DNA of 43,490 bases, from IMG/VR virus record IMGVR_UViG_3300033153_009214, positions 1 through 43,490 of that record. One strand, written 5' to 3'. Under the pieces are notes generated by a model that searched no databases, was not told the origin of the DNA, and was given only the letters and a program-made list of their open reading frames with translations. This stretch comes from a virus. How positions within the stretch are numbered: the stretch's first letter is position 1; every line of letters begins with the position of its first letter. The translations under genes and the position numbers were made by a program. Below, piece by piece: positions 3,352 to 39,087 of the stretch.

Positions 3352-4611
3352 ATGCCTGTAAACCCAGTAACAGTAACAACCACCGTGACCATTGCAACTC
3401 AGAGAGTAGCTAGTTATGGTGAGATTTGTATAGTAGGGACAGAGGCTGGAGGAGCCGCACCAGATAACACTGTTGAGTTGATAGACAACCTGACAGATAT
3501 AGCTACGCGGTTTGGTAGTACAACCGATTTGTACTATGCAGCTGAGAGAATATTTGACCAAGGAGTCGCAAGCGTATATTGTGTTAGAGTAGGAAGTACT
3601 AATGTTCCTTCAGAGGCAGTGATTGTAGGAGCAGGTGTGTTGGCTAATTTCCCTGTGTATGGAAAATCAACAATAACTCTTGCAGCGTATACAGTACAGT
3701 TTACTACTGGAACTCCATCGGATCCTGGTGCCGGTAAGATAGAGATAAATACCAAAACTGGCGCAATATGGGTCGGAACTGGTGCAGGTGGTAATATAGC
3801 ATATGATTACCTCGACTGGACTGGTCTGTTTGCAGTTACAAAAGACTATAGTTTCGATATTATGGTTGCTGCAATGTACTTTACAGAAGAACAGGAATAT
3901 GGCGATGTTGATACATTACTAGACGACTGTGATTCCGAGAACCGAGTAATGCCTATAATGGCTGTAAAATCTGCAGCCGCTGCAGGTATTGTAACATTAG
4001 CTGCTGACTTTTCTTCAAAGAATGCTGTATTTATTGCACACGGTTGTGATGAAGATGCTGCAGCTGCAGTAGCTGGACGAATGTCTATTGTCAAACCATG
4101 GGAGAAAATGATGTGGAAAAAGATACCTGGTCTTACGATGGATGCATACTATGATGACTCTGATGTTGCCACTCTTGAAGCTGGTAATGTAAATGCCATC
4201 ATTTTGAGGAATAACGAGTACGATGTTATGTCTGATGGACTTACAACAGAGGGTAGTACTTATAAGTATATCGATATAACTAGAACACAGTATTACTTGG
4301 AAACTCAGATTATAACAGGTCTTGGCGATCTGATTGAAAGAGTAGATATACCATACACGCCTAACGGTCTTGATATGGTGAAGAGTAATATAGAGACTGC
4401 TTGTGAAACAGCTGTTGGTGTAGGAGCGGTAAGGGCGCCATTCGTCAATGACGATGGAGATTATAGTTCGCCTTATATCGTGCAGATGCCTGACTGGGAT
4501 ACCATATCATCAGCCGATAAGACAGCGAGACTATTGCAGAATATATATGTGACCGTATATCTGGCAGGACAAATACAGGCTATTAGTTTGTACTTGAACA
4601 TACAGATCTAA
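3352..4611 (+). CDS. Tail sheath protein
   Basis: The 419-residue protein forms the contractile outer tail tube. The N-terminal region has the sheath pattern of a short beta start followed by 'IVGTEAGG', an 'IDNLTDIATRFGS' loading segment and 'AAERIFDQGVASVYCVRVG'. The C-terminus has the conserved sheath end with 'RLLQNIYVTVYLAGQIQAIS' and a final beta strand that reaches the neighbouring subunit. AAAGGAGG precedes the ATG. The tube gene follows 12 bases downstream, which is the usual sheath-tube order and shows a myovirus morphology. Confidence 0.9.
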   Translation: MPVNPVTVTTTVTIATQRVASYGEICIVGTEAGGAAPDNTVELIDNLTDIATRFGSTTDLYYAAERIFDQGVASVYCVRVGSTNVPSEAVIVGAGVLANFPVYGKSTITLAAYTVQFTTGTPSDPGAGKIEINTKTGAIWVGTGAGGNIAYDYLDWTGLFAVTKDYSFDIMVAAMYFTEEQEYGDVDTLLDDCDSENRVMPIMAVKSAAAAGIVTLAADFSSKNAVFIAHGCDEDAAAAVAGRMSIVKPWEKMMWKKIPGLTMDAYYDDSDVATLEAGNVNAIILRNNEYDVMSDGLTTEGSTYKYIDITRTQYYLETQIITGLGDLIERVDIPYTPNGLDMVKSNIETACETAVGVGAVRAPFVNDDGDYSSPYIVQMPDWDTISSADKTARLLQNIYVTVYLAGQIQAISLYLNIQI

Positions 4612-4623
4612 TGAGGTGTTAAA

Positions 4624-5070
4624 ATGGCAGAAGTAGGAGTAGTTAGAGACCCTGAAGTATTTGATATTCGATACTGCCATCTAGTAATAGGTGGTAGAGA
4701 AATGACCGATATACATTCAGATGGTTATGGCATAACCCCGGAGTCAGAAATATCACTTATCCCTGGATTAGCTGGAGAGGCTGGTTTTAGCATAGACCCT
4801 TCCACAGCTGCCACGGCTACGGTGACCCTTTTGGCTCCAAGCGCAGACAATGAATATCTCTGGGAAATATATAGAAACCAGAGAGCCGGTGTCCAAGGAC
4901 CTGTGACTGTTGAAATTTCAGTTGACGCTGCAAAAGTAGACGCACTTGGTTTTAAAACCAGAACAATGGTATATGCGATGATTCAGAAACCATCAGCATT
5001 TGCAACAGCTGGGAAGGACTCACCCGGATTCGAGTTTACTTTCACTGGGTATGGATATACGCAGTCTTAA
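4624..5070 (+). CDS. Tail tube protein
   Basis: A 148-residue beta-rich protein just after the sheath gene, as in all simple contractile tails. It has a compact beta-sandwich layout and a 'GFEFTFTGYGYTQS' end typical of tube subunits. It forms the inner tube around the tape measure. A pentamer repeat (GTAGA, 5071-5087) lies between its stop and the next ribosome site. Confidence 0.75.
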   Translation: MAEVGVVRDPEVFDIRYCHLVIGGREMTDIHSDGYGITPESEISLIPGLAGEAGFSIDPSTAATATVTLLAPSADNEYLWEIYRNQRAGVQGPVTVEISVDAAKVDALGFKTRTMVYAMIQKPSAFATAGKDSPGFEFTFTGYGYTQS

Positions 5071-5104: not shown

Positions 5105-5401
5105 ATGTCAGACGAAAAGGAAAACCCTTACGATGACCTATACGTAGACGAAGAGCCGTTGGAGTTCGATCTCCACGGTATTACCTTCGTTGTGAAAGCA
5201 ATGTCTACCGGAGAATACCTCGATATAGTAGACGACGTAAAAGCTGATAGTAAAGCAGATTATATGAGAAAGGTCTGGGAAAAAAGTGTATTATCACCCA
5301 AAGATCTTGATCTTGATAGGCTCAAACCAGATATATATGTCGAAATCGTTGGCCGGATAGAAGAGCTTATGGGTATGAGTGAGGACGGACAAAAAAACTG
5401 A
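5105..5401 (+). CDS. Tail assembly chaperone, short form (gpG-like)
   Basis: A 98-residue acidic protein (many Asp/Glu in the first 40 residues, then helical) between tube and tape measure genes. This is the place of lambda gpG-type tail assembly chaperones, which coat the tape measure during assembly. AAAGGAGGAATAG precedes the start. Its last codons hold the heptamer A AAA AAC in the correct phase (5392-5398), directly before the TGA, so a minor fraction of ribosomes should make a longer gpG-GT product by slipping back one base. Confidence 0.75.
   Translation: MSDEKENPYDDLYVDEEPLEFDLHGITFVVKAMSTGEYLDIVDDVKADSKADYMRKVWEKSVLSPKDLDLDRLKPDIYVEIVGRIEELMGMSEDGQKN
5392..5398 (+). promoter_or_regulatory. 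Minus-1 programmed frameshift heptamer A AAA AAC
   Basis: In the zero frame the end of the chaperone gene reads CAA AAA AAC TGA. The heptamer fits X XXY YYZ with XXY and YYZ as in-frame codons. A minus-1 slip leads to CTG at 5398 and an open frame to 5643. About 10-12 bases downstream is a hairpin: CTCC (5410-5413) with GGAG (5418-5421), or alternatively AACTCC (5408-5413) with GGGGTT (5421-5426). The distance and site type are those of known frameshift signals. Confidence 0.75.
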
Positions 5402-5643
5402 GAACCGAACTCCTGACGGAGGGGTTTGTGTATCTGGTATCGAAAGAGTGGGGTTTATCCCCATTCGAAGTGAGAAAATGGCCAATGTCTGAAGTTATGA
5501 AGTGTGCTATTTTCTTAAAAATGCAGAATGAGAGTACAGAAGAAGAATTAGATGATGATATAGATGCTGCTGAAAAAGATTTAAACAAGGCATATAGTTC
5601 CTCTAGTTCTTCGGTGAAGAAGCACAAGTATCAATTCAAATAA
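5398..5643 (+). CDS. Tail assembly chaperone, frameshifted extension (T part of gpGT)
   Basis: Read after the minus-1 slip, this adds 81 residues to the 98 of the short form, giving a product of about 179 residues. It begins with LRTELLTEGF and has helical content, then an acidic segment and a Ser-rich, Lys-rich tail. A GTG at 5428 with GGAGGGG upstream could also start a free 71-residue protein; this ribosome site lies inside the hairpin, so the hairpin could control it. Both possibilities stay open, but the phase of the heptamer makes the fusion more likely. Confidence 0.65.
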   Translation: MRTELLTEGFVYLVSKEWGLSPFEVRKWPMSEVMKCAIFLKMQNESTEEELDDDIDAAEKDLNKAYSSSSSSVKKHKYQFK

Positions 5644-5664
5644 TGCGTTCCTATGGGTGGTATA

Positions 5665-8619
5665 ATGGCAGACAAAGTATCTAACTTGCAAATGAAAATG
5701 ACATCCATAGGCTTCACCAAAACTGCTGCAGAGGGGCAAAGAGTTTCTAGTATGTTTGACGCTATAATAGCTAAAGCTAACCAGTTCAATGCAATACAGC
5801 GAACTATGTCAAAAGGTTCTATGATGGCGGGACCTATAGGAAGACAATTACCTACTAGATTTGCTGGCTCTGGTCTTCTAACTAGTGGAGGTGTAGGAGG
5901 AGGAGCTGGTGCAAGACAGATTCAAGCAACTACAAGAGCTGTTACAAGCTTGACATCTGAGAGTGCTAAATATAATAAAGTATCTGCTGAAACTACAGAA
6001 GAAACAGATACATCACGTAATGCGTTTTTGTTTCTAGCTTTCGGTATGATGGCCGCAGGCGGAATGATGTCGAGAATTGGAAGACAACTTGGTCAACTTA
6101 AAGACAACTTTATAGAAACATATAAAGTTATAGAAAATCAATCCGTTATTGTTACTACTATACTTGGCGAACAAGGTGATGTTCAAGAAGAAGTGTATAA
6201 TAAAATGATAGAATTGGGAGTTAAGACCAGATGGACTAGTGCTCAGGCTGGTGAAGCTATGCAGAAGCTAGCAATGGCTGGTTTGAAAACCAATGAAGTG
6301 CTAGGTGCTGTTGAATCTACTCTTAATCTAGCAACTGTTGGTTTAATTAGTACTGCTGAAGCAGCTGATTTAGCTGTTGGTATATATCGTGGTTTCAGTT
6401 ATGAAGCAGAAAATGTTAATCAAGTACATGCACAAATGGAGCATATTACAAGTGTATTAGCTAATGCTATTACACACAGTGCTTTAACCATGAGCCAACT
6501 GGCAGATGCTCTCAAGTTCGTAGCAGCTGCTGCTGAACAAGTAGGATGGAGTTTTGAATCAGTTACCGCTGCTATCATGACTGGTGCAGATAGTATGGTG
6601 AGAGCGGGTATAGCAGGTAGAGGTTTAAGATTCTCTATAGTGAATTTAAATAGACTAGCTGGTAAACAAGCAGATACATTCTTGACAGCTGAAAAAGCAT
6701 TAGATATGTATAATATACAGCTATTAGATATGAGCGGTGAGTTGAAGGCATTACCAGATATGGTAGATGAATTTAATGAAAAATTAACCGGTTTGAATAA
6801 AACTCAGAAATTAGCAATAATACAACAACTTGTTGGTACAAGGGCATTGACTTTATGGGCTGCGATGTTAGATGGGACAGGCGATGGTCTAAGAAAGAAA
6901 GAGATGGCTATGAAAATAAGTGCTGCTAGAGAGGCAATAGGTAATAAAACAACAGAGGATTCTGTCGATATTCTCAAAAAATGGAGAAGTGAACTGGGCG
7001 ATGATCAAACAGCTCTTGTATGGCTTACAGAAGAAATGGGGTATACAGTTGATGAAGCTTTGAACATAATGGAAGTCTTACAAGGAATGAGAGAAAACCA
7101 GGAATTATGGAATGATGCTATGAGTAATAGTAGTGAACTTTCTGATATTACAAACCAAAGATTAAGAACACTTCAAGGTACAACTCTTTTGCTTAAAAGC
7201 AGTGTGGATGCATTATATGCATCATTCGGTGAAACACTTGGACCGGCTCTTATATGGCTCAATAGAAACTTAAAGAAGCTGACAGATCTTGTGACCAGAT
7301 TACCAAAGCCTGTTAGGACTATTATAGCTGTAGCAGTATTGCTTGGTTTTGCAATCTTCACAGTAGCTGGAAAGATTATGATGACAGTTGGAACGTTATT
7401 TATGATGCAGGCAGCCATGATAGCTATAAAACACACTACTGGCGAGACTGTTACCACAATGATGTTGTTTCAGCAAACATTGCACGGCATAAATGCTTCT
7501 GCTAAACTTACAGGTACAGGATTAATCTATCTCGGTTCAACTATGAAATTTGTCGCATTGTCTGCTGCTTTGATGTATGTTACTATGTATGGAGCAATAT
7601 GGGTAACAGAAAAATTCGGAAAAGTAGCTGGTACTCTTACATTTATACTTGGATTGTTATTGCAAGTAAAGTTGGCCAATATAAGTCTAACGAGAATGGA
7701 TACTATTGCCACAAGATACAATAATGTAAGCAAAGTAACGGCATTAAAAATAATGAAATTCTATACCCTTAGGAGTATAAAGAAGGCTGCTGCAACAATG
7801 ATAGAAACAATATCTACTAAAATTAACACAGTAGCAACCATTATCAATACAAAAGTAAAGGTAGGGGCTGCTTTTGCGACTGGTATGCTGGCGGCTGTTA
7901 TAGCTACTTCTGTTGCTGCTTGGCATTCGGCCACTGCTGCTATTGTGGCTAATACAATTGCTATATTGGCGAATCCTATAGGATTGGTTATAGTAGGTAT
8001 AATAGCCCTTGTGATTGCATTATACGCTTTACATAAAAACTGGGATAAATTATCAGGCATAATGAAAATAGTCCTATTTTTAATGACTGCTACTCTTGCG
8101 CCTGTGATAGCTTTATATATAGCGGCTCGGTTGTTATACGAAAACTGGGATAAAGTAGCAGATGCTGCTGGTAGAGCATATAATTATCTGGTAAGACTAG
8201 GAACTGCTTTCGTTAGAATGATTAATCCTATAAAACAAGTAATGGACCTGCTTAGAGCGTTCAGAAAAGAAACAGATAAAGTGGGAGATGCATGGGATGG
8301 TTTGGCTAAAAAGTTTGATAAATTGATGGGTCATTCTCTCATACCTGAATATATAGAAGCGGGTGTTAAGCGCATAAAAGGAAGTATGTCCGAATTACAA
8401 GGAGCAAGTAGCGGAGGAGGAGGAGCAGGCAGTATAATGAGTGGTGTTTCTTCTATAGGCGGAGCAGTAGCTGTTAGTATAAATATAGAAAGTATAAATG
8501 CAAATGATACAGCAGAGGCGGATTATACAATTGATAAAATAAGAAGGGTAGTTGCACAAACAGTAACAGAAACGATGAGAAGAGAAAAATTATCTATTTC
8601 AAAGAGTCTGGTGGTATAA
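5665..8619 (+). CDS. Tail tape measure protein
   Basis: At about 984 residues it is the longest gene in the window. It sets tail length. The N-terminal third is helical and Ala-rich; a conserved 'TRWTSAQAGEAMQKLAMAGL' type block at about residue 190 is typical of the phage tape measure domain. Several strongly hydrophobic stretches occur between about residues 560 and 850, as in other tape measures that may form a pore. A Gly-rich linker lies near residue 920. Start: the ATG at 5665 follows GGTGGTATA, the same ribosome site as the next gene; an ATG at 5653 is less likely. Its end overlaps the next start. Confidence 0.9.
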   Translation: MADKVSNLQMKMTSIGFTKTAAEGQRVSSMFDAIIAKANQFNAIQRTMSKGSMMAGPIGRQLPTRFAGSGLLTSGGVGGGAGARQIQATTRAVTSLTSESAKYNKVSAETTEETDTSRNAFLFLAFGMMAAGGMMSRIGRQLGQLKDNFIETYKVIENQSVIVTTILGEQGDVQEEVYNKMIELGVKTRWTSAQAGEAMQKLAMAGLKTNEVLGAVESTLNLATVGLISTAEAADLAVGIYRGFSYEAENVNQVHAQMEHITSVLANAITHSALTMSQLADALKFVAAAAEQVGWSFESVTAAIMTGADSMVRAGIAGRGLRFSIVNLNRLAGKQADTFLTAEKALDMYNIQLLDMSGELKALPDMVDEFNEKLTGLNKTQKLAIIQQLVGTRALTLWAAMLDGTGDGLRKKEMAMKISAAREAIGNKTTEDSVDILKKWRSELGDDQTALVWLTEEMGYTVDEALNIMEVLQGMRENQELWNDAMSNSSELSDITNQRLRTLQGTTLLLKSSVDALYASFGETLGPALIWLNRNLKKLTDLVTRLPKPVRTIIAVAVLLGFAIFTVAGKIMMTVGTLFMMQAAMIAIKHTTGETVTTMMLFQQTLHGINASAKLTGTGLIYLGSTMKFVALSAALMYVTMYGAIWVTEKFGKVAGTLTFILGLLLQVKLANISLTRMDTIATRYNNVSKVTALKIMKFYTLRSIKKAAATMIETISTKINTVATIINTKVKVGAAFATGMLAAVIATSVAAWHSATAAIVANTIAILANPIGLVIVGIIALVIALYALHKNWDKLSGIMKIVLFLMTATLAPVIALYIAARLLYENWDKVADAAGRAYNYLVRLGTAFVRMINPIKQVMDLLRAFRKETDKVGDAWDGLAKKFDKLMGHSLIPEYIEAGVKRIKGSMSELQGASSGGGGAGSIMSGVSSIGGAVAVSINIESINANDTAEADYTIDKIRRVVAQTVTETMRREKLSISKSLVV

Positions 8620-15863: not shown

Positions 15864-16538
15864 TTACTCCTCATACTCTATAGGATCAACTGTTCCGTTA
15901 TTGATAAATGCTTGCCTTCTAAACCTGCAACTATCACAAACACCGCATGCTTTGTCTCTACCGTTGTAGCAACTCCATGTATGCTGATAAGGTATGTTAT
16001 ACCCAAGACCTACTTTGACAATATCGTCCTTAGTTAAGCTTATGATAGGAGTTTCTATGGTTATTGGAGAACCTTCCACTGCTCGCTTAGAACTAAGCGA
16101 AGCGAGACAGTTCCAAGCTTCTATGTATTCTGGTCGACAATCCGGGTACCCACTATAATCTACTGCATTAACACCCGTCCATATCTCGTCTATGTTGCGC
16201 GTTTCCGCCAACGACAATGCCGCTGCAATAAAAATAGTGTTTCGTCCTGGAACATATGATATAGGTATTCCGCCTTCGTATCCTTCTTCCGGTACCTCGA
16301 TGGCTTCATCTGTGAGTGCTGAACCGCCAAACTTACCTAAGAATTCTGTGTTTACCTCATGCCATATGACGTGGTAATAGTCACATAGTATTCTAGCGCA
16401 TCTGATTTCCCTTGTGTGTCTCTGCCCGTAGTAATATGTTACGGCTTCTACGTTCTTATGGCCGTGCTTATTTACAGCCATTCCTAGGCAAGTTGCAGAA
16501 TCTAATCCTCCTGATAGTATTACAAGTATTCGTGTCAT
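15864..16538 (-). CDS. queC: 7-cyano-7-deazaguanine (preQ0) synthase QueC
   Basis: 224 residues, normal length. QueC converts 7-carboxy-7-deazaguanine plus ammonia and ATP into preQ0. The PP-loop ATP site SGGLDS is at residues 9-14, followed by 'YYYGQRH'. 'YVPGRNTIF' and 'GVNAVDYSGYPDCRPEY' are typical of the family. The C-terminal zinc site is complete (C in HTWSCY, then CGVCDSC). No amidotransferase domain is fused, so it is QueC rather than Gat-QueC. It is the last gene of the minus operon, near FolE2. With QueD, QueE and a TGT-fold protein elsewhere in the window it makes a full pathway. Confidence 0.95.
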   Translation of the reverse strand: MTRILVILSGGLDSATCLGMAVNKHGHKNVEAVTYYYGQRHTREIRCARILCDYYHVIWHEVNTEFLGKFGGSALTDEAIEVPEEGYEGGIPISYVPGRNTIFIAAALSLAETRNIDEIWTGVNAVDYSGYPDCRPEYIEAWNCLASLSSKRAVEGSPITIETPIISLTKDDIVKVGLGYNIPYQHTWSCYNGRDKACGVCDSCRFRRQAFINNGTVDPIEYEE

Positions 16539-17067: not shown

Positions 17068-17847
17068 TCATCTCTCAATAACAGCGTATGCGTTATGGTC
17101 GTGTATGCTTTCCTGATTCTCCACACGAACCATGTAGTGTTCGATATCCCACTCTTCTAACTCGACCGCTATCTTTCGAACGATATCTTCTACGAACATA
17201 GGATTCTCGTATGCTTTTTCAGTTACGACTTTCTCATCAATTCTCTTCAACAATGGGAATATCTCGCATGAACCGCAATTTTGTATGAGGTCTACTATCT
17301 CCTCAATCCATATGAAACCTTCTTCTTCTGATTCTTTTGTTTCCTTTACCTCTATACGGACTGTTATATCACCGCGCTGGTTGTGTGCTCCGTACTTGGA
17401 TATTTCCTTAGAACAAGGACATAGTGATGTAACATACATTGATACTTCGAGATAACGCTTAAAGTCTTTAACTTCAAATGCTACAGTTATAGGCAGTAGA
17501 CTCCTTTTCTTGGATGCAGGAGATACGACTGGTACGAAATAAGGAAACTCGATGCGCAATTTACCAGAATCCATTTCTTGTTCAGCTATTGCAAATCCTA
17601 ATACTTCCTCCACCACATCTATTGTAACTACACCATCCTCAAGATTTTCTAGAAGTACTTCTATGAATCTGCTCATATGTACGCCTTTTTGAGTGGACAT
17701 CAGTTCAGTACCTATCTCTATAGTTGCTATTGTTGATTGATATCCTCCGTCAGGCTGCTCTACCTGTATAGGTAGTTTGACTTTTGATATTCCTACTTCG
17801 TCTATCGCTATTTCGTGTTCTGCTGGTTCTTGCTGTACGTCTTTCAT
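17068..17847 (-). CDS. folE2: GTP cyclohydrolase I type B (FolE2/MptA)
   Basis: 259 residues. It opens the imidazole ring of GTP, giving a dihydroneopterin phosphate; in the 7-deazaguanine pathway this feeds QueD. Family marks: 'GVHMSR' at 55-60, 'SLCPCSKEIS' at 141-150 with the metal-binding Cys pair, and 'YGAHNQRG' at 152-159. The T-fold tandem layout is complete. The type B enzyme is the archaeal version (MptA). It overlaps the upstream gene by four bases and sits three genes from QueC. Confidence 0.93.
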   Translation of the reverse strand: MKDVQQEPAEHEIAIDEVGISKVKLPIQVEQPDGGYQSTIATIEIGTELMSTQKGVHMSRFIEVLLENLEDGVVTIDVVEEVLGFAIAEQEMDSGKLRIEFPYFVPVVSPASKKRSLLPITVAFEVKDFKRYLEVSMYVTSLCPCSKEISKYGAHNQRGDITVRIEVKETKESEEEGFIWIEEIVDLIQNCGSCEIFPLLKRIDEKVVTEKAYENPMFVEDIVRKIAVELEEWDIEHYMVRVENQESIHDHNAYAVIER

Positions 17848-21675: not shown

Positions 21676-24083
21676 TCTTCATCTCCTCCAAAACTAAATA
21701 TAGATTGTTGTATCTGCCCTTGCATCAAGGCCAAAGTAGTCAGCTTTCTATCGATGATGCGTATGATAGGATCTATCTTGTTAGACAATATCTTCTCAGC
21801 TTGCAGCTTCCAATCAATCTTGTCTGCCCATTCGTCTAAATCATCATCACTCTTTAACGCTACACGATTAGTTGCTTTGTGTGTTATAGTACCATCTTTC
21901 TTCACGATTTCCATTATACCATTATCTGGTGTATGCTTCAAGTAGAAATTATATGCCTTCTCTCCTTCGAAGTCTTTTTCTAATACTTTGGTACTATATA
22001 ATACACCTATAATTGCTGCCTGTATCTTATAATCATGAAGTGCTTTATTAATAGACTGTGGTATGCCTACTTCTAGTACTGTTCTGTTCTGTAAGTCCTT
22101 TGACATATTAACAAGATACTTTGTAATCTCCTTGATAGTCTTGTCTTCTAATACCATTTTGAGTATAGTAGCTTGGACCTCTCGAGTCAGTGCACTGCTG
22201 TCACTTCTTCTCAACTCAAATCCTTTAGCCTTGAGGTCGTAGCATTCTCTCCCACCATCCCAAGTAACAATACCCGCGTACCTCTTCTTCTTGTCGCCGA
22301 AGAACATCTTCTGATAAAACTGTTCGAACTCAATTCTGGGTGTAAAGGTCCATTCTTCTTCTTTACCCTTCTGCTGAATCAACTCATTGAGCTTGTCTTC
22401 TAGTTTCTTTGCTTCCTCTATCTTGTCTTTACTATCAGATTCATCTCCGCCCATTATAACCATAATAGAGTCGGTATCTCCATATATAACTTCATATCCC
22501 ATCTTTTCTACAGCAGCGACACTCATTTTAATAAGCTTCCTTGCTTCAAATGTTGTACACTCACTAATCTCTGGGTAATATACAAGAGAGTATTTATTAG
22601 CCACGTATCCATACATAGCAGCAAGACATTGTTTTATACCGTACTGCATGTTGTCCAATACTTTGTATCTATCAGGATCTGTATCCTTTACCTGTTTCAT
22701 TTCCTTCTTTATTTTCGTTCTTAATACTGTTAATCCTTCAAATATGGTAGGTAGTATTCCTTTTATATCTTTTCTGAACCATATCTTCCTGTCTTCGTTT
22801 ATATCCATCTCAAAGTAGTTATCAGGATCTTTTGCAACAATGTTAGGATCTAATTCCATTGTTTCAAAGCTCATGTTATTTTTGCGTATCATGGTAGGAT
22901 ACATCTGTGAGTAATCTAATGTGGCACAGTTTTTATATCTACCAGGCTTGGGCTGTATAACATATGCTCCCTCATAGTCATAATCTTCATGTTCTGTTCT
23001 ATGTGGAAACACAAACTTACCAGCACATGCTCTCAGTATAAGAGATTCTGCATATCTTCCAGTCATAATGGTATCATCAAGATTACAACCTGCTACTATT
23101 TTAATACCCGTAAATTGGTCTATTATGCCGTGCTTTTTATCTAGCAAATAACACTTCATCACATCGTCTTCGTTGTAAGGCAGTATCATGTTGATATTAT
23201 GTCTGTTCATGTCTCTCTTATAATTGAAATGAGGCTCTGGAATGTCTAATCCGTATTGGTCGCTTCGGGCTGCGACTTTATCAAGCGCATAGCTCTCCAA
23301 CTTCTTGCCCTGGAAGTACTTCTCAAAACCCTTCTTCAAATCATATACTTCTACACCAGTGGCTCTTATGTTTTTCTTCCCGTACATGTATTTGAGTGTC
23401 TTTCCACCTTTGAACTTGATACCAGCTTTATCCATTCTGTTAACGAGTGTCATTACATCAAACTGTATATTCCATCCTATAAGTACATCGAAGTCTATAT
23501 CTTTCAGAGCACTGTTAAAGTTACGGAACATTACCTTCTCTTGTATCTCATCAGAAGCAGTCCATGCATACTTCTCAAGGCTGTCTTTGTTGGGGTCCCA
23601 TACCCATAAAACCATTGTTAATATCATCCAGTTAGCTTTGTGAGGGTCAGGGAATACATTACCTTTAACTTCTACCTCAATATCATAATATGCACGAACA
23701 AGACTTACTTCAGGCGGTTCAGCAGCCTCTATGCTGTAATCATTGGGTCCTGTGGTTTTATTCCATATTATGTTGAAGCCGCCGCCTATGTCTTTATCTT
23801 TTAATACCTGCTTTACATAGTTTATATCATTCTCAAAATAACGAGTCTCTTTGGGCACATCATAAGGGTCTTCGACTTCAACCTTTATGAGAGGTACCTT
23901 TACAGTGCTTAAAAGACCGATGTGTGGCCCGCCAACTGCTTCCATGTAATAGTAAGGTCTTGGAGCATTAACTCTGAACTCATGCCTTACGCCCTGTTTA
24001 TCTCTACCTGCTACTGTTATGCGTCCTGGGTATCGCTTATCATACCACGAGTTCGTCAGTAAAAACGGGCCGAGTTTATTCAT
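21672..24083 (-). CDS. polB: Family B DNA polymerase
   Basis: 803 residues, the replicative polymerase. Proofreading exonuclease: 'YYDIEVEV' (Asp134, Glu136), 'GWNIQFDV' (Asn205, Asp209), 'YNEDDV' (303-308). Polymerase: motif A 'LDYSQMYPTMI' (Asp390), motif B 'KQCLAAMYGY' (484-493) where the usual Asn-Ser is replaced, motif C 'YGDTDSI' (Asp536, Asp538). All catalytic residues are present. There is no TPR insertion typical of protein-primed enzymes, so RNA priming is expected, though no primase is recognised. The DpdA-like gene overlaps its start by eight bases. Confidence 0.95.
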   Translation of the reverse strand: MNKLGPFLLTNSWYDKRYPGRITVAGRDKQGVRHEFRVNAPRPYYYMEAVGGPHIGLLSTVKVPLIKVEVEDPYDVPKETRYFENDINYVKQVLKDKDIGGGFNIIWNKTTGPNDYSIEAAEPPEVSLVRAYYDIEVEVKGNVFPDPHKANWMILTMVLWVWDPNKDSLEKYAWTASDEIQEKVMFRNFNSALKDIDFDVLIGWNIQFDVMTLVNRMDKAGIKFKGGKTLKYMYGKKNIRATGVEVYDLKKGFEKYFQGKKLESYALDKVAARSDQYGLDIPEPHFNYKRDMNRHNINMILPYNEDDVMKCYLLDKKHGIIDQFTGIKIVAGCNLDDTIMTGRYAESLILRACAGKFVFPHRTEHEDYDYEGAYVIQPKPGRYKNCATLDYSQMYPTMIRKNNMSFETMELDPNIVAKDPDNYFEMDINEDRKIWFRKDIKGILPTIFEGLTVLRTKIKKEMKQVKDTDPDRYKVLDNMQYGIKQCLAAMYGYVANKYSLVYYPEISECTTFEARKLIKMSVAAVEKMGYEVIYGDTDSIMVIMGGDESDSKDKIEEAKKLEDKLNELIQQKGKEEEWTFTPRIEFEQFYQKMFFGDKKKRYAGIVTWDGGRECYDLKAKGFELRRSDSSALTREVQATILKMVLEDKTIKEITKYLVNMSKDLQNRTVLEVGIPQSINKALHDYKIQAAIIGVLYSTKVLEKDFEGEKAYNFYLKHTPDNGIMEIVKKDGTITHKATNRVALKSDDDLDEWADKIDWKLQAEKILSNKIDPIIRIIDRKLTTLALMQGQIQQSIFSFGGDEE

Positions 24084-24822
24084 CTACTTTACACGCCTTC
24101 ATGAATTTTGCATAAAATTCATCTTTGTCAGCTGTCCATTTATCATCTACCCAATTAAAACCAGGCATAGCGGTATCAGGCATATGTACGTCTATACCGT
24201 GTTCATTCAACTTGTCAGTTGAAAAATGCTTGCTAAGTTTGAAAGGATATGATGAATCAAAGCTTTTCACAACATTCCTGTTACAATATTGTATTTCATA
24301 TACATCATTACATCCTAAGAAATGCCATGGTTTATGCCCATAATTACCAAATGATAATGCTGCTCTGGTACTATGTCGTGGGTTATACATCAACTTCTTA
24401 GGTATGGCTATTGTATGAATAGCTTTACAACTCTCGTATTCGTCTATTATATCCACAAATTCCCTGAGATTTGAAGCCCATGCAACGGCTATCGCCTTGG
24501 GCTTCTTAAAGTCTTCAGGATATTTCTCCTTATATTCCTTTAAATCGTTAAAAATAAAATCGAATGTTCTTTCTGATGTTTGGTACCCTTTGCCAAATAC
24601 ATCTGGTATTACGTAATAATCTGGTTGTAGAGCCCTGATGATATCTAAATATTGTCTTGAGTCCATTGCTTCCCCGAACTCGTATGCTCCATTGTCGAGT
24701 ATAATCTCTTTACCAGATTTTCTATAATGGTCTATATGACCTTCAATGAATTGTGCCACTAGTAGCAGTGACTTGTGTCCCTCTAGCATGTGAGGAACTG
24801 GGCATATGGAAAAGTACTTCAC
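24076..24822 (-). CDS. dpdA: TGT-fold transglycosylase, DpdA-like (DNA 7-deazaguanine insertion)
   Basis: 248 residues, shorter than tRNA-guanine transglycosylases (about 370) and lacking a PUA domain or the zinc site. Key motifs line up with the TGT barrel: 'IILDNGAYEFG' (Asp43) for the acid Asp of DSGGFQ, 'YVIPDVFGKG' (Asp74) for the substrate-pocket strand, 'WHFLG' for the MGVG turn and 'KSFDSSYPFK' (Asp189) for the nucleophile motif FDC..PTR. Phage DpdA enzymes of this kind swap guanine in DNA for preQ0. Complete preQ0 genes in the same window and overlap with polymerase B support a DNA rather than tRNA target. The transglycosylase fold is well supported; DNA as target is inference. Confidence 0.75.
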   Translation of the reverse strand: MKYFSICPVPHMLEGHKSLLLVAQFIEGHIDHYRKSGKEIILDNGAYEFGEAMDSRQYLDIIRALQPDYYVIPDVFGKGYQTSERTFDFIFNDLKEYKEKYPEDFKKPKAIAVAWASNLREFVDIIDEYESCKAIHTIAIPKKLMYNPRHSTRAALSFGNYGHKPWHFLGCNDVYEIQYCNRNVVKSFDSSYPFKLSKHFSTDKLNEHGIDVHMPDTAMPGFNWVDDKWTADKDEFYAKFMKACKVDE

Positions 24823-26707: not shown

Positions 26708-26902
26708 TCACTCCTTTTCAGCATTTAATGGTACGATAATGCCATCGTTAACATACTTCAATTCTCCTTCAGGTGTCATAATCTTCCTAACTTCTAAGAA
26801 AATAATGTCTCCTGTTTCTATTCCAAATAACTCCCGTGTCGATTTACGAATAGTTACCTGGCCGTTCTTTGCCATAGTGGCCTGTAAGATATTCGGATTC
26901 AT
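26708..26902 (-). CDS. AbrB/SpoVT-type swapped-hairpin regulator
   Basis: 64 residues. 'TMAKNGQVTIRKSTRELFGI' followed by 'ETGDIIFLEVRK' is the AbrB/MazE DNA-binding pattern. As the first gene of the long minus operon it is a good candidate to regulate it and the divergent plus operon. A TATA box is centred about 28 bases before its ATG with no ribosome site, so the mRNA is probably leaderless. Confidence 0.85.
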   Translation of the reverse strand: MNPNILQATMAKNGQVTIRKSTRELFGIETGDIIFLEVRKIMTPEGELKYVNDGIIVPLNAEKE

Positions 26903-26926
26903 CTAAATTTATAATAGCCCCTAAAG

Positions 26927-26934
26927 TATATAAA
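26927..26934 (-). promoter_or_regulatory. TATA box for the minus operon (leaderless AbrB gene)
   Basis: On the minus strand the sequence reads GCTTTATATACTTTAG. The box centre is about 28 bases from the ATG at 26902, which is the usual archaeal TATA-to-start distance. The transcript would begin at the start codon. Confidence 0.55.
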
Positions 26935-26953
26935 GCTTGCTGAATACAAATTA

Positions 26954-26972
26954 TTCCAACAAGTATATATAC
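26954..26972 (+). promoter_or_regulatory. BRE/TATA promoter for the plus operon
   Basis: TTCCAACAAGTATATATA (26954-26971) is a purine-rich BRE-like element joined to a TATA box. The same 18 bases occur on the minus strand at 40284-40267 ahead of a winged-helix gene. Transcription should start near 26995, giving a leader of about 55 bases before the first plus gene. Confidence 0.6.
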
Positions 26973-27049
26973 GATGAGCATCTATTATATATTGTATTAG
27001 ATTATTCTATCTGATACAGGTAGTACAGTGGTGACAGTGATGGTGTTGG

Positions 27050-27226
27050 TTGAAAGTGTTCAAGATAGTATTTTTAGATGGTAACTTGAGTAGCGGTAAT
27101 GCTCGTTCGTTAAAAGGAACAATCAAGGACGAAGATGAGCTTTACATATATCTCGAAAGACCAGAAGGCGACATAGTCAGAATTAATCATCACTTCATCA
27201 TTAAGATTGAGGAGGTGAGTGGTTGA
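27050..27226 (+). CDS. Small beta-rich protein
   Basis: 58 residues from a TTG with GGTG upstream (or 56 from the GTG at 27056). 'LKGTIKDEDELYIYLERPEG' and 'DIVRINHHFIIKIEEV' suggest a small SH3-like or Sm-like barrel. It is the first gene of the plus replication operon and overlaps the next gene by four bases. No family recognised. Confidence 0.5.
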   Translation: MKVFKIVFLDGNLSSGNARSLKGTIKDEDELYIYLERPEGDIVRINHHFIIKIEEVSG

Positions 27227-27750
27227 TTACGGCGATTGTAGGGCCAGATGGCTCCGGCAAAACTTATCACATTGATAATGTTATGAAAGTAGATGCTATG
27301 CATGCATGTAGTAGGACTAGATGGATAAAGGGTACGAACGATGTAATGCTTGTTGTTAAGGAGATTGCTATTGCACTTGAAAGAGCTTACACGTATGTTA
27401 TGATACGTTTAATAGAAGGGAAAGGGGATTTATATCTAGACCGTTGTTTTATAGATGCTATTGTTTGTAGCAGATTTTGGTCAGAGAAGACAGGTATAAA
27501 GATTCTTTCAAAGATAGGAAAGAGTACTGTGTTTTTGTCGCTACTACCAGAGCGCATAATATTAATGAGACCTCGATACGGGATGGCAGAACCCAAGAGA
27601 AAGGGTCTCTTTTCAGTTGATGATATTGAGACAATGTCTCAGATATATATTAATGTATTAATAGAGAATGATTATATGCTTAAATATAAAGAAGAATATA
27701 AAATGGGTCAGGTGATGACATATGAAAGAAGGATGGGAATATCTAGTTGA
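27223..27750 (+). CDS. Thymidylate kinase-like dNMP kinase
   Basis: 175 residues starting at TTG behind GGAGGTGAG. P-loop 'GPDGSGKT' at 7-14 and 'DLYLDRCFIDAIV' with the DR motif match thymidylate kinase-like P-loop kinases, though shorter than cellular Tmk (about 200). The LID region is not clear. It would phosphorylate dNMPs made by ThyX and the dCMP deaminase route. Overlaps the nuclease gene by 29 bases. Confidence 0.7.
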   Translation: MITAIVGPDGSGKTYHIDNVMKVDAMHACSRTRWIKGTNDVMLVVKEIAIALERAYTYVMIRLIEGKGDLYLDRCFIDAIVCSRFWSEKTGIKILSKIGKSTVFLSLLPERIILMRPRYGMAEPKRKGLFSVDDIETMSQIYINVLIENDYMLKYKEEYKMGQVMTYERRMGISS

Positions 27751-28390
27751 TACACGAGAATGGAAGATTACTATACCGTTGCTTAAGAGATTAGGCTTGA
27801 GCGACAAGTACAAGGAATATGCGCTCAATAGTGGAGACTTTGCTCTTAGAAGGAATGGACGTCTTGAAGTAGGTGTAGAGCGAAAACAGATGGGTGATTT
27901 AGTATCAAGTATCATGAGCCATCGTTTAGAGGACCAGATAACTCGAATGCGTATGCAATATAATGTATATATATTGATGATAACAGGGGATTTGGATGAA
28001 CACATAGCTTATATGGCTACTATAGGTGTGAAGATAAATAAGAACGTTGTATTAGGGCAAATAGCTTCTTTAGCTGTAAGACAACAAGTACAAGTTATGT
28101 GGTTTCCGGACGATGAAATAGGCGTTGATAGTATCAACAGGATTTTAACAAAGATAGTCGATGGGAAGTATGGCAAGATTGAGCGTCAAAGGGGTAAGAA
28201 GTTAGCAACACCGGTTGATTTGTTAACGTGTATTCCGAATATCTCTACCAAGAAGGCGTTGAATTTGTTGAAAAAGTTCGGGAGTATAGCGAATGTATCT
28301 AATGCATCTGTTGAAGAATTGGTAAAGGTGGATGGTATAGGGACTGCGACAGCTGCACTGGTTAATGATATATTAAACAGGAAGAAATGA
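27722..28390 (+). CDS. XPF/ERCC4-type structure-specific nuclease
   Basis: 222 residues. ERCC4 nuclease: 'YLVDTREW' (Asp10, Arg12, Glu13), 'NSGDFAL', 'GVERKQMGDL' (the ERKxxxD core at 53-59). C-terminal tandem helix-hairpin-helix: 'LTCIPNISTKKALNLLKKFG' and 'LVKVDGIGTATAALV'. This is the short archaeal XPF form without helicase. It cuts flaps and forks. Start set by GGTGATGACAT. Confidence 0.9.
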   Translation: MKEGWEYLVDTREWKITIPLLKRLGLSDKYKEYALNSGDFALRRNGRLEVGVERKQMGDLVSSIMSHRLEDQITRMRMQYNVYILMITGDLDEHIAYMATIGVKINKNVVLGQIASLAVRQQVQVMWFPDDEIGVDSINRILTKIVDGKYGKIERQRGKKLATPVDLLTCIPNISTKKALNLLKKFGSIANVSNASVEELVKVDGIGTATAALVNDILNRKK

Positions 28391-36829: not shown

Positions 36830-38434
36830 TCATACACCTCTCTTCTTTGGGTCCCATAGAATCTTGTGCAGCTGGGGTAATATCATAACACGACTCATAT
36901 CCATTACGAACCGCTCATTCAATACCTTCTCAGTCAAGTCAGTTATATTGGTACCACCGACTGCCGTGATAACTATATCACTCCTAACAGGATGTGCCAT
37001 CATCACATACTTCATGGTGTTGTAGTCAAATGGATCTGCTACCACAAATTTAAGCTGGTCACATGCCCTTAAGCGGGGCAAATTCTCGTCCATCATTTTA
37101 GGTGTCATGCCACTAGATGGTAGTTTATAATCCATAGATATCTGCACACGTCGGAACTTGATTAAAGCGCTAACATCAAGACTGCCATTAGTTTCAATCA
37201 CGAAGAAGTGATTTTTCAATCTTCTGACAATCTCTAACACGACCTCTGGGTGTATCAGCGGTTCTCCGCCTGTGATACACACAAGGCGTGTGGAGGGGAA
37301 TGTCTTAATCTTATTTACAATTCCCTCTACAGTCATTTCTTTTCCGTCTTCGAATGCATAGGTTGTATCACAGTTATGTACAATGAATCCGTTTGCTATG
37401 AAGTTACCAGTACCTGTTGTTATATCGTATACGTTTGTTGTTCCGTGGCCAGATACATCTATTACTTCTGTTTTCTTTGAAGTTTGTATAGAATAATCTA
37501 TTCCTTTTTTTCTCTGTAACACAGGTTGACACTCACACATGAATCTTAAAGGTTCATGTATTATAATGGTATACATTTCACCATGTTTCTGTACATTATG
37601 ATCAAAACCGAGTTTCTTTATATATAATATTGTATTATTCACTACATCCATGTTCTTTTCAGACTGAGATATCCTAATGCATTGTGTATCAAAATGACCG
37701 TCTGCATCGTATATACCTGCTAAGTAACTTCTCATATATGCATCTGTTGTGTAATCTTCTGAATGAATCCACTTGCTGAGTTTCTCTGCTTCATTGCTAT
37801 TTGTTATTTCAATAGCTCTTATATTGTTTTTGCCTTTGAAGCCATTAGATGTGTGTATTATCTTTCTACTGTGTATGTCATGTTCTAATAGTATATCATA
37901 CAAAGTATCTATAAGTATATCATCATTAGACGCTAGCTTGAATCTCAGATACTTGTCTTTATACAAATGAAAATTACCATCACCGTCTGCATATCCTCTT
38001 ACCCATCCTCTATCACTTATAGGTAAATATGATGCAACATTTCTTACAAGTTTCCCTTTCATACTAGAAGCATTCTGATAAAATGTCTTGTGTGTCGCAT
38101 TCAGTACTTTGTGGTCTGGTGTTAGTATCAAATCATTGTGATTTGTAGACATTTTTACTACTTTTCTTCTTCCTCTGTTTACGGCATTAGTTACCAATGT
38201 CTCTGTATACTTCAAGTGTTTATTATATCCTTCTCTTTCTGCACCTATAACTTTATCACCTATACATACATCTTCTATTGATTTCCATGTATAATCAGCC
38301 ATAAGCACTTTTTCTCCCTCTCCTATGCACCATTCGCACCTTAGGTTACAGCCGGTAAATCGAACAAAGACCGTTGGCCTTCCTATTGTTGCTCCTTCTC
38401 CTTGTACGCTCAAAAATATCTCATTTATCTTCAA
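36830..38434 (-). CDS. queE: 7-carboxy-7-deazaguanine synthase QueE, intein-containing
   Basis: Radical SAM enzyme that turns 6-carboxytetrahydropterin into 7-carboxy-7-deazaguanine. From a TTG at 38434 (AAGGTGG upstream) the host protein reads '[10 protein letters not shown]', '[14 protein letters not shown]', then is broken by an intein; after it come '[10 protein letters not shown]', '[12 protein letters not shown]' and '[11 protein letters not shown]'. Spliced length is about 215 residues, normal for QueE, with the motif CNLRCEWC restored. In-frame codons upstream of 38434 belong to overlap with the previous gene. Without splicing the third iron-sulfur Cys is separated from the other two by 319 residues, so the precursor should be inactive. 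Confidence 0.93.
37373..38329 (-). mobile_element. LAGLIDADG intein inside QueE
   Basis: 319 residues. It starts with Cys1 in [12 protein letters not shown] (block A), has 'ILTPDHKVL' (block B, with His), two dodecapeptide motifs 'VRGYADGDG' and '[10 protein letters not shown]' of a homing endonuclease, '[20 protein letters not shown]' (block F and the C-terminal His-Asn, block G), and is followed by Cys+1. All residues needed for splicing are present, and both endonuclease Asp/Gly motifs look intact, so it may still be mobile. The +1 Cys is the third ligand Cys of the QueE 4Fe-4S cluster. Confidence 0.93.
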
Positions 38435-38606
38435 AGTATTCCACCTTCTTTTGACTTTTTGTAATATATGATATACGATATAGTCCTGTTTCGTATATTT
38501 CATTGAAGTACTTCTTTACAAAGTTCTTCGCCTTTCTTGTGGTAGCAAATGGATAGTCTACCAGTATTCTCTTCTTGAGAGTTATATAATAACCTTCTTC
38601 AGTCAT
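38421..38606 (-). CDS. Small basic hypothetical protein
   Basis: 61 residues between QueD and QueE, overlapping both (8 and 14 bases). '[19 protein letters not shown]' is a basic helix, then two beta strands. Starts at 38612 or 38615 are also possible. Tight coupling suggests it belongs to the preQ0 cassette, but no function is known. Confidence 0.5.
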
Positions 38607-39087
38607 CTCCATCACTCATGTCACTCCAACAAGACTGTACACTTGCAGTAGGAGATTCGAATACTTCGACATCTATCATTGTGATTTTATATCCCTCTTG
38701 ATTCCCTTTGTTTAGTATGTCTTTCAATATTTCGTTTGCTATGTTTTCTGCTGTGGAGCTAATAGAGTCTATGAACTTAACTCCTTTTATATTAAACTCC
38801 CCGAAGAATGTATCGGTTTGTATTGAAACCATTCCTTCTACAGCATTTATTTTAGTACAAAGTTGTGATGGTAATATAATCTTGTGGTCATATTTATCGA
38901 TTACCTTCTTCAATAATCTGAAGTCTATAATCATTCCATCCTTTCTCATCTCTCCTGCAAGAGATACTATCACTTTCCATGTATGTCCATGTATAAACCT
39001 ACACGGTGAGTCTTTTCCAGCTGTATGCACGAAGTGCGCTGCATCGAATGATAATTCTTTTACCAAATATTGCTCTTTTCTCAACAT
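38599..39087 (-). CDS. queD: 6-carboxytetrahydropterin synthase QueD
   Basis: 162 residues, T-fold. Converts dihydroneopterin triphosphate to 6-carboxytetrahydropterin. 'FDAAHF' gives the first zinc His (His18), Cys29 is the catalytic Cys, and 'FIHGHTW' the other zinc His (His33, His35). 'IDFRLLKKVIDKYDHKII' has the Asp-His pair and 'STAENIANEI' the substrate-binding Glu. It is somewhat longer than bacterial QueD (about 120), with an insertion near residues 75-100. Confidence 0.93.
   Translation of the reverse strand: MLRKEQYLVKELSFDAAHFVHTAGKDSPCRFIHGHTWKVIVSLAGEMRKDGMIIDFRLLKKVIDKYDHKIILPSQLCTKINAVEGMVSIQTDTFFGEFNIKGVKFIDSISSTAENIANEILKDILNKGNQEGYKITMIDVEVFESPTASVQSCWSDMSDGDD

Follow-up and report, generated by a model that had tools for sequence, protein, structure and literature searches.

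A very probable −1 frameshift site in the tail assembly chaperone genes of a contractile-tailed, probably archaeal virus, with a slippery heptamer kept across eight lineages

The stretch of DNA analyzed here, designated as the window, covers all 43,490 bases of a virus record that is classified as linear. On its plus strand, from position 206, the genes run in the order major capsid protein, head-tail genes, sheath, tube, two overlapping frames (G and T), tape measure, Dit-like protein, hub and baseplate J. The tail sheath (DUF3383; 3352–4611) was identified by Pfam PF11863 (E = 1.1e-9), with ChaoS9 and PhiCh1 as its best phage matches, and the tail tube protein (4624–5070) by phrog_280 (E = 2e-7) and its homologues. 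The tape measure protein (5653–8619) was recognized by Pfam PF10145 (E = 5.6e-32) and also by PHROG, where several families of tape measure proteins matched. The G and T frames therefore sit between tail tube and tape measure, the place of the lambda-type G/GT chaperones.

G (5105–5401, plus strand) yields a zero-frame product of 98 amino acids and ends at TGA (5399–5401). As the sequence-only reading had noticed, the heptamer A AAA AAC (5392–5398) is in phase and directly 5′ of this stop, within GAC GGA CAA AAA AAC TGA. The −1 frame is open from 5383 to 5643, and the T part (5398–5643, plus strand) comprises 81 codons past the shift followed by TAA (5641–5643); the G-T fusion would have 179 amino acids. 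The window's genes have 13,430 codon positions, at which canonical in-phase heptamers occur 39 times and A AAA AAN sites eight times. Since the overlap of the two frames spans six positions, chance would place 0.017 canonical and 0.001 A AAA AAN sites in it. Among the eight A AAA AAN sites of the window, only that at 5392–5398 is found where a gene ends. The peptide K-N-L-R, proposed earlier as evidence for the junction, needs a small correction: the tryptic peptide that joins the frames would be N-L-R only, too short for ordinary proteomics. With proteases other than trypsin, the sequence spanning the junction is MSEDGQKNLRTELL or MSEDGQKKLRTELL, and TELLTEGFVYLVSK is a T peptide encoded upstream of GTG 5428.

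That G is a tail chaperone, also proposed from the sequence, is borne out by its position, by Pfam Phage_TAC_5 in its homologues and by Foldseek matches to tail assembly chaperones. Two of nine G homologues matched Phage_TAC_5 (PF08890, XkdN-like) weakly, with a best E-value of 9.1e-5, and PHROG 389 (XkdN-like) was matched as well; the window's own G had no Pfam family match. An AlphaFold model of this G (pLDDT 78) was used for Foldseek searches. In the PDB, the top match was YqbN (probability 0.60), and the HK97 tail assembly chaperone was also listed. In BFVD, many of the entries matched are named tail assembly chaperone, including that of ChaoS9 (probability 1.00). Foldseek E-values were weak (best 1e-3 for viral entries and 0.24 for the PDB). 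The E-values for the predicted kinship of G with chaperones are each weak alone, and are convincing when combined with gene order. A likeness to the XkdN-YqbN chaperones of PBSX/SKIN is seen in the two matching homologues and in the YqbN fold match; it is weak, and the window's own G did not reach that family's profile. For the T domain there was no informative Pfam or PHROG match; using hhalign, the window's T was matched to the T of ChaoS9 (E = 9e-6) and of PhiCh1 (E = 3e-5).

No DNA-level match to the window was found among 50,697 phage records, and single-sequence scans of IMG/VR with the tape measure and sheath proteins gave no match. Relatives were reached via iterated alignments, in which sheath, tube and baseplate J were each aligned with a first relative. 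The IMG/VR relatives form seven further lineages: L004, L008/L009, L011 (with L019–L021), L012 (with L023 and L024), L017, L018 and L022. Their tube proteins are 34% to 49% identical to that of the window. In every lineage a G homologue follows the tube gene, and T then lies in the −1 frame. Comparison of the site in relatives had been suggested with loss of the heptamer in mind; an in-phase A AAA AA(C/G) is kept in all eight lineages (A AAA AAC in the window, L008, L012, L017, L018 and L022; A AAA AAG in L004 and L011). The heptamer is retained although its distance to the zero-frame stop varies from 0 to 39 nt, being 0 in the window and L004, 12 in L008, L011 and L018, 24 in L022, 27 in L012 and 39 in L017. 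The product of chance probabilities over the eight lineages is 1e-10, assuming independence and counting any canonical site, and is a rough guide only because the lineages share ancestry. Codon usage alone does not account for the heptamer codons; in L008 these are CAA AAA, and CAA makes up 28% of Gln codons and AAA 26% of Lys codons there. L013 and L016 were left out of the eight-lineage set as more distant baseplate J relatives. The second chaperone ORF of L013 (3808–4516) is in the +1 frame, and L016 has T TTT TTA.

AAC occupies the A site in six of the clade's eight heptamers. It may be favored there because of archaeal tRNA-Asn, which is not known to carry queuosine. In E. coli, A AAA AAC is weaker than A AAA AAG (PMC5009743).

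From the shift onward, T is collinear among the lineages, with two lysine codons, 11 to 12 residues, [YF]L[IV]AKEF, the motif W(P) and, in most cases, YQF[KR] at the C terminus. For one close pair, L012/L024, dN is 0.054 and dS is 0.47 in the −1 frame (dN/dS about 0.11), and beyond the G stop 16 of 24 changes fall at third positions of T; the substitutions of this pair indicate that purifying selection acts on T as read in the −1 frame. A synonymous-constraint test of G in L008/L018 revealed nine identical codons spanning the heptamer and a Shine-Dalgarno (SD)-like sequence just upstream of it, but like runs were seen in 6 of 189 (about 3%) conserved 9-codon windows elsewhere, which makes this run a weak sign of constraint.

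Downstream of the heptamer, the window can form a hairpin (5401–5435, plus strand; −14.7 kcal/mol) with a core stem of 5406–5414 paired to 5420–5428 and a loop of 5415–5419. It is at the usual distance, as claimed before, with 7 nt from heptamer to core stem and about 5 nt to the next pairs. Its role as a likely stimulator is favored by synonymous recoding of T, in which only 0 to 2 of 1000 recodings were predicted to be as stable (42 to 48 nt folded). By dinucleotide shuffling, 14 to 40 of 1000 sequences were as stable, rising to 199 of 1000, not significant, when 60 nt were folded. A second strong hairpin is predicted inside T (5446–5466, plus strand), with the fold GAGUGGGG-UUUAU-CCCCAUUC. 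The hairpins of L004 (−19.7 kcal/mol) and L011 (−22.9 kcal/mol), 5 to 6 nt past the heptamer, are unrelated to that of the window and stronger. None of 1000 recodings was as stable in either case, and the L004 hairpin is the best within its 13-kb locus. By synonymous recoding, L008, L012, L018 and L022 have no significant downstream hairpin, and L017 is marginal (86 of 1000). An Rfam search found no known element.

The sequence GAGGTGGT(G/C)CA, with the SD-like GAGGTG, lies just upstream of the heptamer in L008 (5799–5815), L018 (5786–5802), L017 (5795–5811) and L022 (5678–5694). Predicted pairing of this element with the anti-SD is −11.5 to −12.1 kcal/mol, placing it in the best 0.3% to 0.7% of in-phase sites in each virus's own genes. 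The spacer to the heptamer in L008 and L018 is 5 nt from GAGGTG, or 7 nt from GAGG. No T-frame start codon is at a fitting distance, so initiation is not an obvious function of the SD-like sequence. Candidate stimulators are therefore a hairpin in the window, L004 and L011, and an SD-like sequence in L008, L017, L018 and L022; L012 has neither a clear hairpin nor an SD-like sequence near the site. The negative association between the two over eight lineages is not significant (p about 0.07 by an exact calculation that ignores kinship). A weakly supported tube tree has SD lineages mixed with hairpin lineages, and exchange of stimulators is suggested for this reason. We tentatively propose, while regarding it as somewhat doubtful, that the heptamer is fixed in the clade and that its stimulator has been repeatedly replaced, being either a 3′ hairpin or an internal SD-like sequence 5 to 7 nt upstream that would pair with the archaeal 16S tail. 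The E. coli dnaX site resembles the SD class of relatives, with A AAA AAG and an upstream SD-like AGGGAG. Stimulation by the upstream SD-like sequence is put forward as a hypothesis because the dnaX spacer is 10 nt, against 5 to 7 nt here. Among three known haloarchaeal sites checked (HCTV-1, HCTV-2 and Hardycor1), none has a strong SD.

Together, a heptamer and a −1 frame T conserved across eight lineages strongly support the −1 frameshift signal proposed by the sequence-only reading. The signal is almost certainly real because eight distantly related viruses keep it. Our interpretation, with a probability of roughly 0.92, is that G and T form a G/GT cassette for tail assembly chaperones, expressed by −1 programmed frameshifting, in a virus with a contractile tail and probably an archaeal host. 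At TGA 5399 most ribosomes would end and release the 98-amino acid G protein. A minority would slip one base back on A AAA AAC, where the tRNAs reading AAA and AAC would shift to pair with AAA AAA, and would go on to make the 179-amino acid G-T fusion as the minor product. In the window virus, slipping is probably stimulated by the hairpin 5 to 7 nt downstream. By analogy with lambda, the role of G would be to coat the tape measure protein, and that of T, present in the few G-T fusions, to recruit tube subunits.

It is very unlikely that the frame is changed not by the ribosome but by RNA polymerase, slipping on the A run and inserting one A. A run suited to this is present, with seven A in all lineages but one, which has six, but runs of 6 to 7 are short for known polymerase slippage. 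No longer run occurs, and in every lineage a C or G interrupts the run so that it fits X XXY YYZ. Seven of eight lineages also have either a hairpin at the spacing typical of ribosomal slippage or an SD-like sequence upstream, which argues for the ribosome.

Within the hairpin the window carries GGAGGGG (5418–5424, plus strand) followed by GTG (5428–5430), a possible but unsupported start for T that is not conserved in relatives. If T were a separate protein made from this GTG, with its start controlled by the hairpin, frameshifting would be minor or absent; we judge this highly improbable. The arrangement GGAGGGG-TTT-GTG does have good spacing and a strong predicted anti-SD pairing of −10.4 kcal/mol, and both elements overlap the hairpin, lying within or at its 3′ arm so as to be partly masked, as had been seen at the outset. 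Among the eight lineages, however, an SD-like sequence precedes a T-frame start in the window only. Upstream of the conserved [YF]L[IV]AKEF core, L011, L012, L017 and L018 lack any ATG, GTG or TTG; T-frame starts do occur in L004, L008 and L022, but with no strong SD. T is conserved from the shift site, and a start at GTG 5428, its codon 11, would cut a predicted helix (T residues 2–18). A separate start would also leave the conserved heptamer unexplained. The suggestion that the hairpin acts as a switch for separate initiation of T was thus not sustained, with the start codon/SD pair not conserved and at least four lineages having no start before the T core. T has no conserved start of its own across lineages, though the window has both GTG and an SD-like sequence, and we regard these as arising by chance from the purine-rich arm of the stem or, at most, as peculiar to the window virus. 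Homopolymers are error-prone and the window is a metagenomic contig, but a sequencing or assembly error that splits one true G-T frame, or a decayed gene with a dead T, is of negligible probability given the same arrangement in eight lineages, several with more than one contig (L008/L009, L011/L019/L020/L021 and L012/L024), and the purifying selection on T in L012/L024.

The proposed G/GT cassette resembles that of lambda in gene order, in the overlapping −1 frame and in having a slippery heptamer. The lambda site is G GGA AAG, whereas the window's clade uses A AAA AAC/G. The frameshift is described as conserved in long-tailed phages (Xu, Hendrix and Duda 2004, as cited in PMC5009743). A close parallel is the haloarchaeal siphovirus HCTV-2 (KC292028), in which A AAA AAC is directly before TGA and T is in the −1 frame. 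Its gene pair, flanked by the tail tube and tape measure genes, is annotated as one joined CDS for a chaperone. HCTV-2 differs in being a siphovirus, in a T of 164 codons and in a downstream hairpin of −9.7 kcal/mol that is ordinary for its genome, and its G is not recognizably homologous to that of the window (hhalign probability 0.2%, E = 0.25). The window site is a case of a known mechanism; HCTV-2 has the identical A AAA AAC TGA. The nearest annotated phages by sheath, the haloarchaeal myoviruses ChaoS9 and PhiCh1 (Vertoviridae), have a homologous T in the −1 frame, and the window's tail module is of Vertoviridae type, with homologous sheath, tape measure and T. In place of the window's heptamer, PhiCh1 has T TTG GGA/G GGA AAT. 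In ChaoS9, unlike the window, a canonical heptamer is absent and an ATG for T lies two bases after the G stop (L002, 8124–8180); frameshifting has possibly been lost there in favor of a separate T start.

The assignment to an archaeal virus made in the sequence-only reading is a probable one, the sheath, PolB, ERCC4-HhH nuclease and 7-deazaguanine set all pointing to archaeal viruses. The sheath matched ChaoS9 with an E-value of 8e-25 and PhiCh1 with 3e-8, and the best bacterial match among those listed had 5e-6. The longest PolB matches among phages are haloarchaeal. The only matches of the ERCC4-HhH nuclease (27722–28390) among the 50,697 phage records are to one Methanobacteriales virus, present as two records. 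Genes for QueC (15864–16538), FolE2 (17068–17847), a radical SAM protein that is QueE-like by context (36830–38503) and QueD (38599–39087) are on the minus strand; an intein that carries a LAGLIDADG domain interrupts the radical SAM protein. The QueC, FolE2 and QueD set is comparable to that of HVTV-1, and the window's 7-deazaguanine set is probably for DNA modification. The ORF at 24076–24822 may be a candidate DpdA-like transglycosylase; it had no family match. No sigma-70-like site was found in the divergent region 26880–27260. ThyX and UDG matches do not discriminate the host domain, the eight lineage records yielded no MCM (PolB is in three), and two scans of genome contigs gave no provirus relative. 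From its sequence, the virus is very likely archaeal.

It had been stated that few such signals have been examined in archaeal viruses. This is fair, but the window is not the first: sites have been described in HVTV-1, HCTV-1/2/5 and Hardycor1 (−1; G GGA AAT in Hardycor1, PMC7911831), and in HSTV-2 and the HF1 group (+1; probably so in the HF1 group, PMC7230728). For −1 frameshifting in archaea, what is known comes from Saccharolobus fucA1, the one host gene in which it has been demonstrated, and from a few predictions in haloarchaeal viruses (PMC8211752, PMC5009743). The trick is already known from other tailed viruses, and the window's cassette is a well-supported further case, among the better comparatively supported ones in archaeal viruses. 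The site is kept by an apparently undescribed clade whose tail proteins are about 25% to 50% identical to those of the window. If the proposed replacement of stimulators is true, archaeal ribosomes would, apparently for the first time, show signs of −1 frameshifting stimulated by an SD, and the clade would provide a natural series for stimulator exchange. The clade offers natural variants, AAC versus AAG and hairpin versus SD, for the question of how archaeal ribosomes slip.
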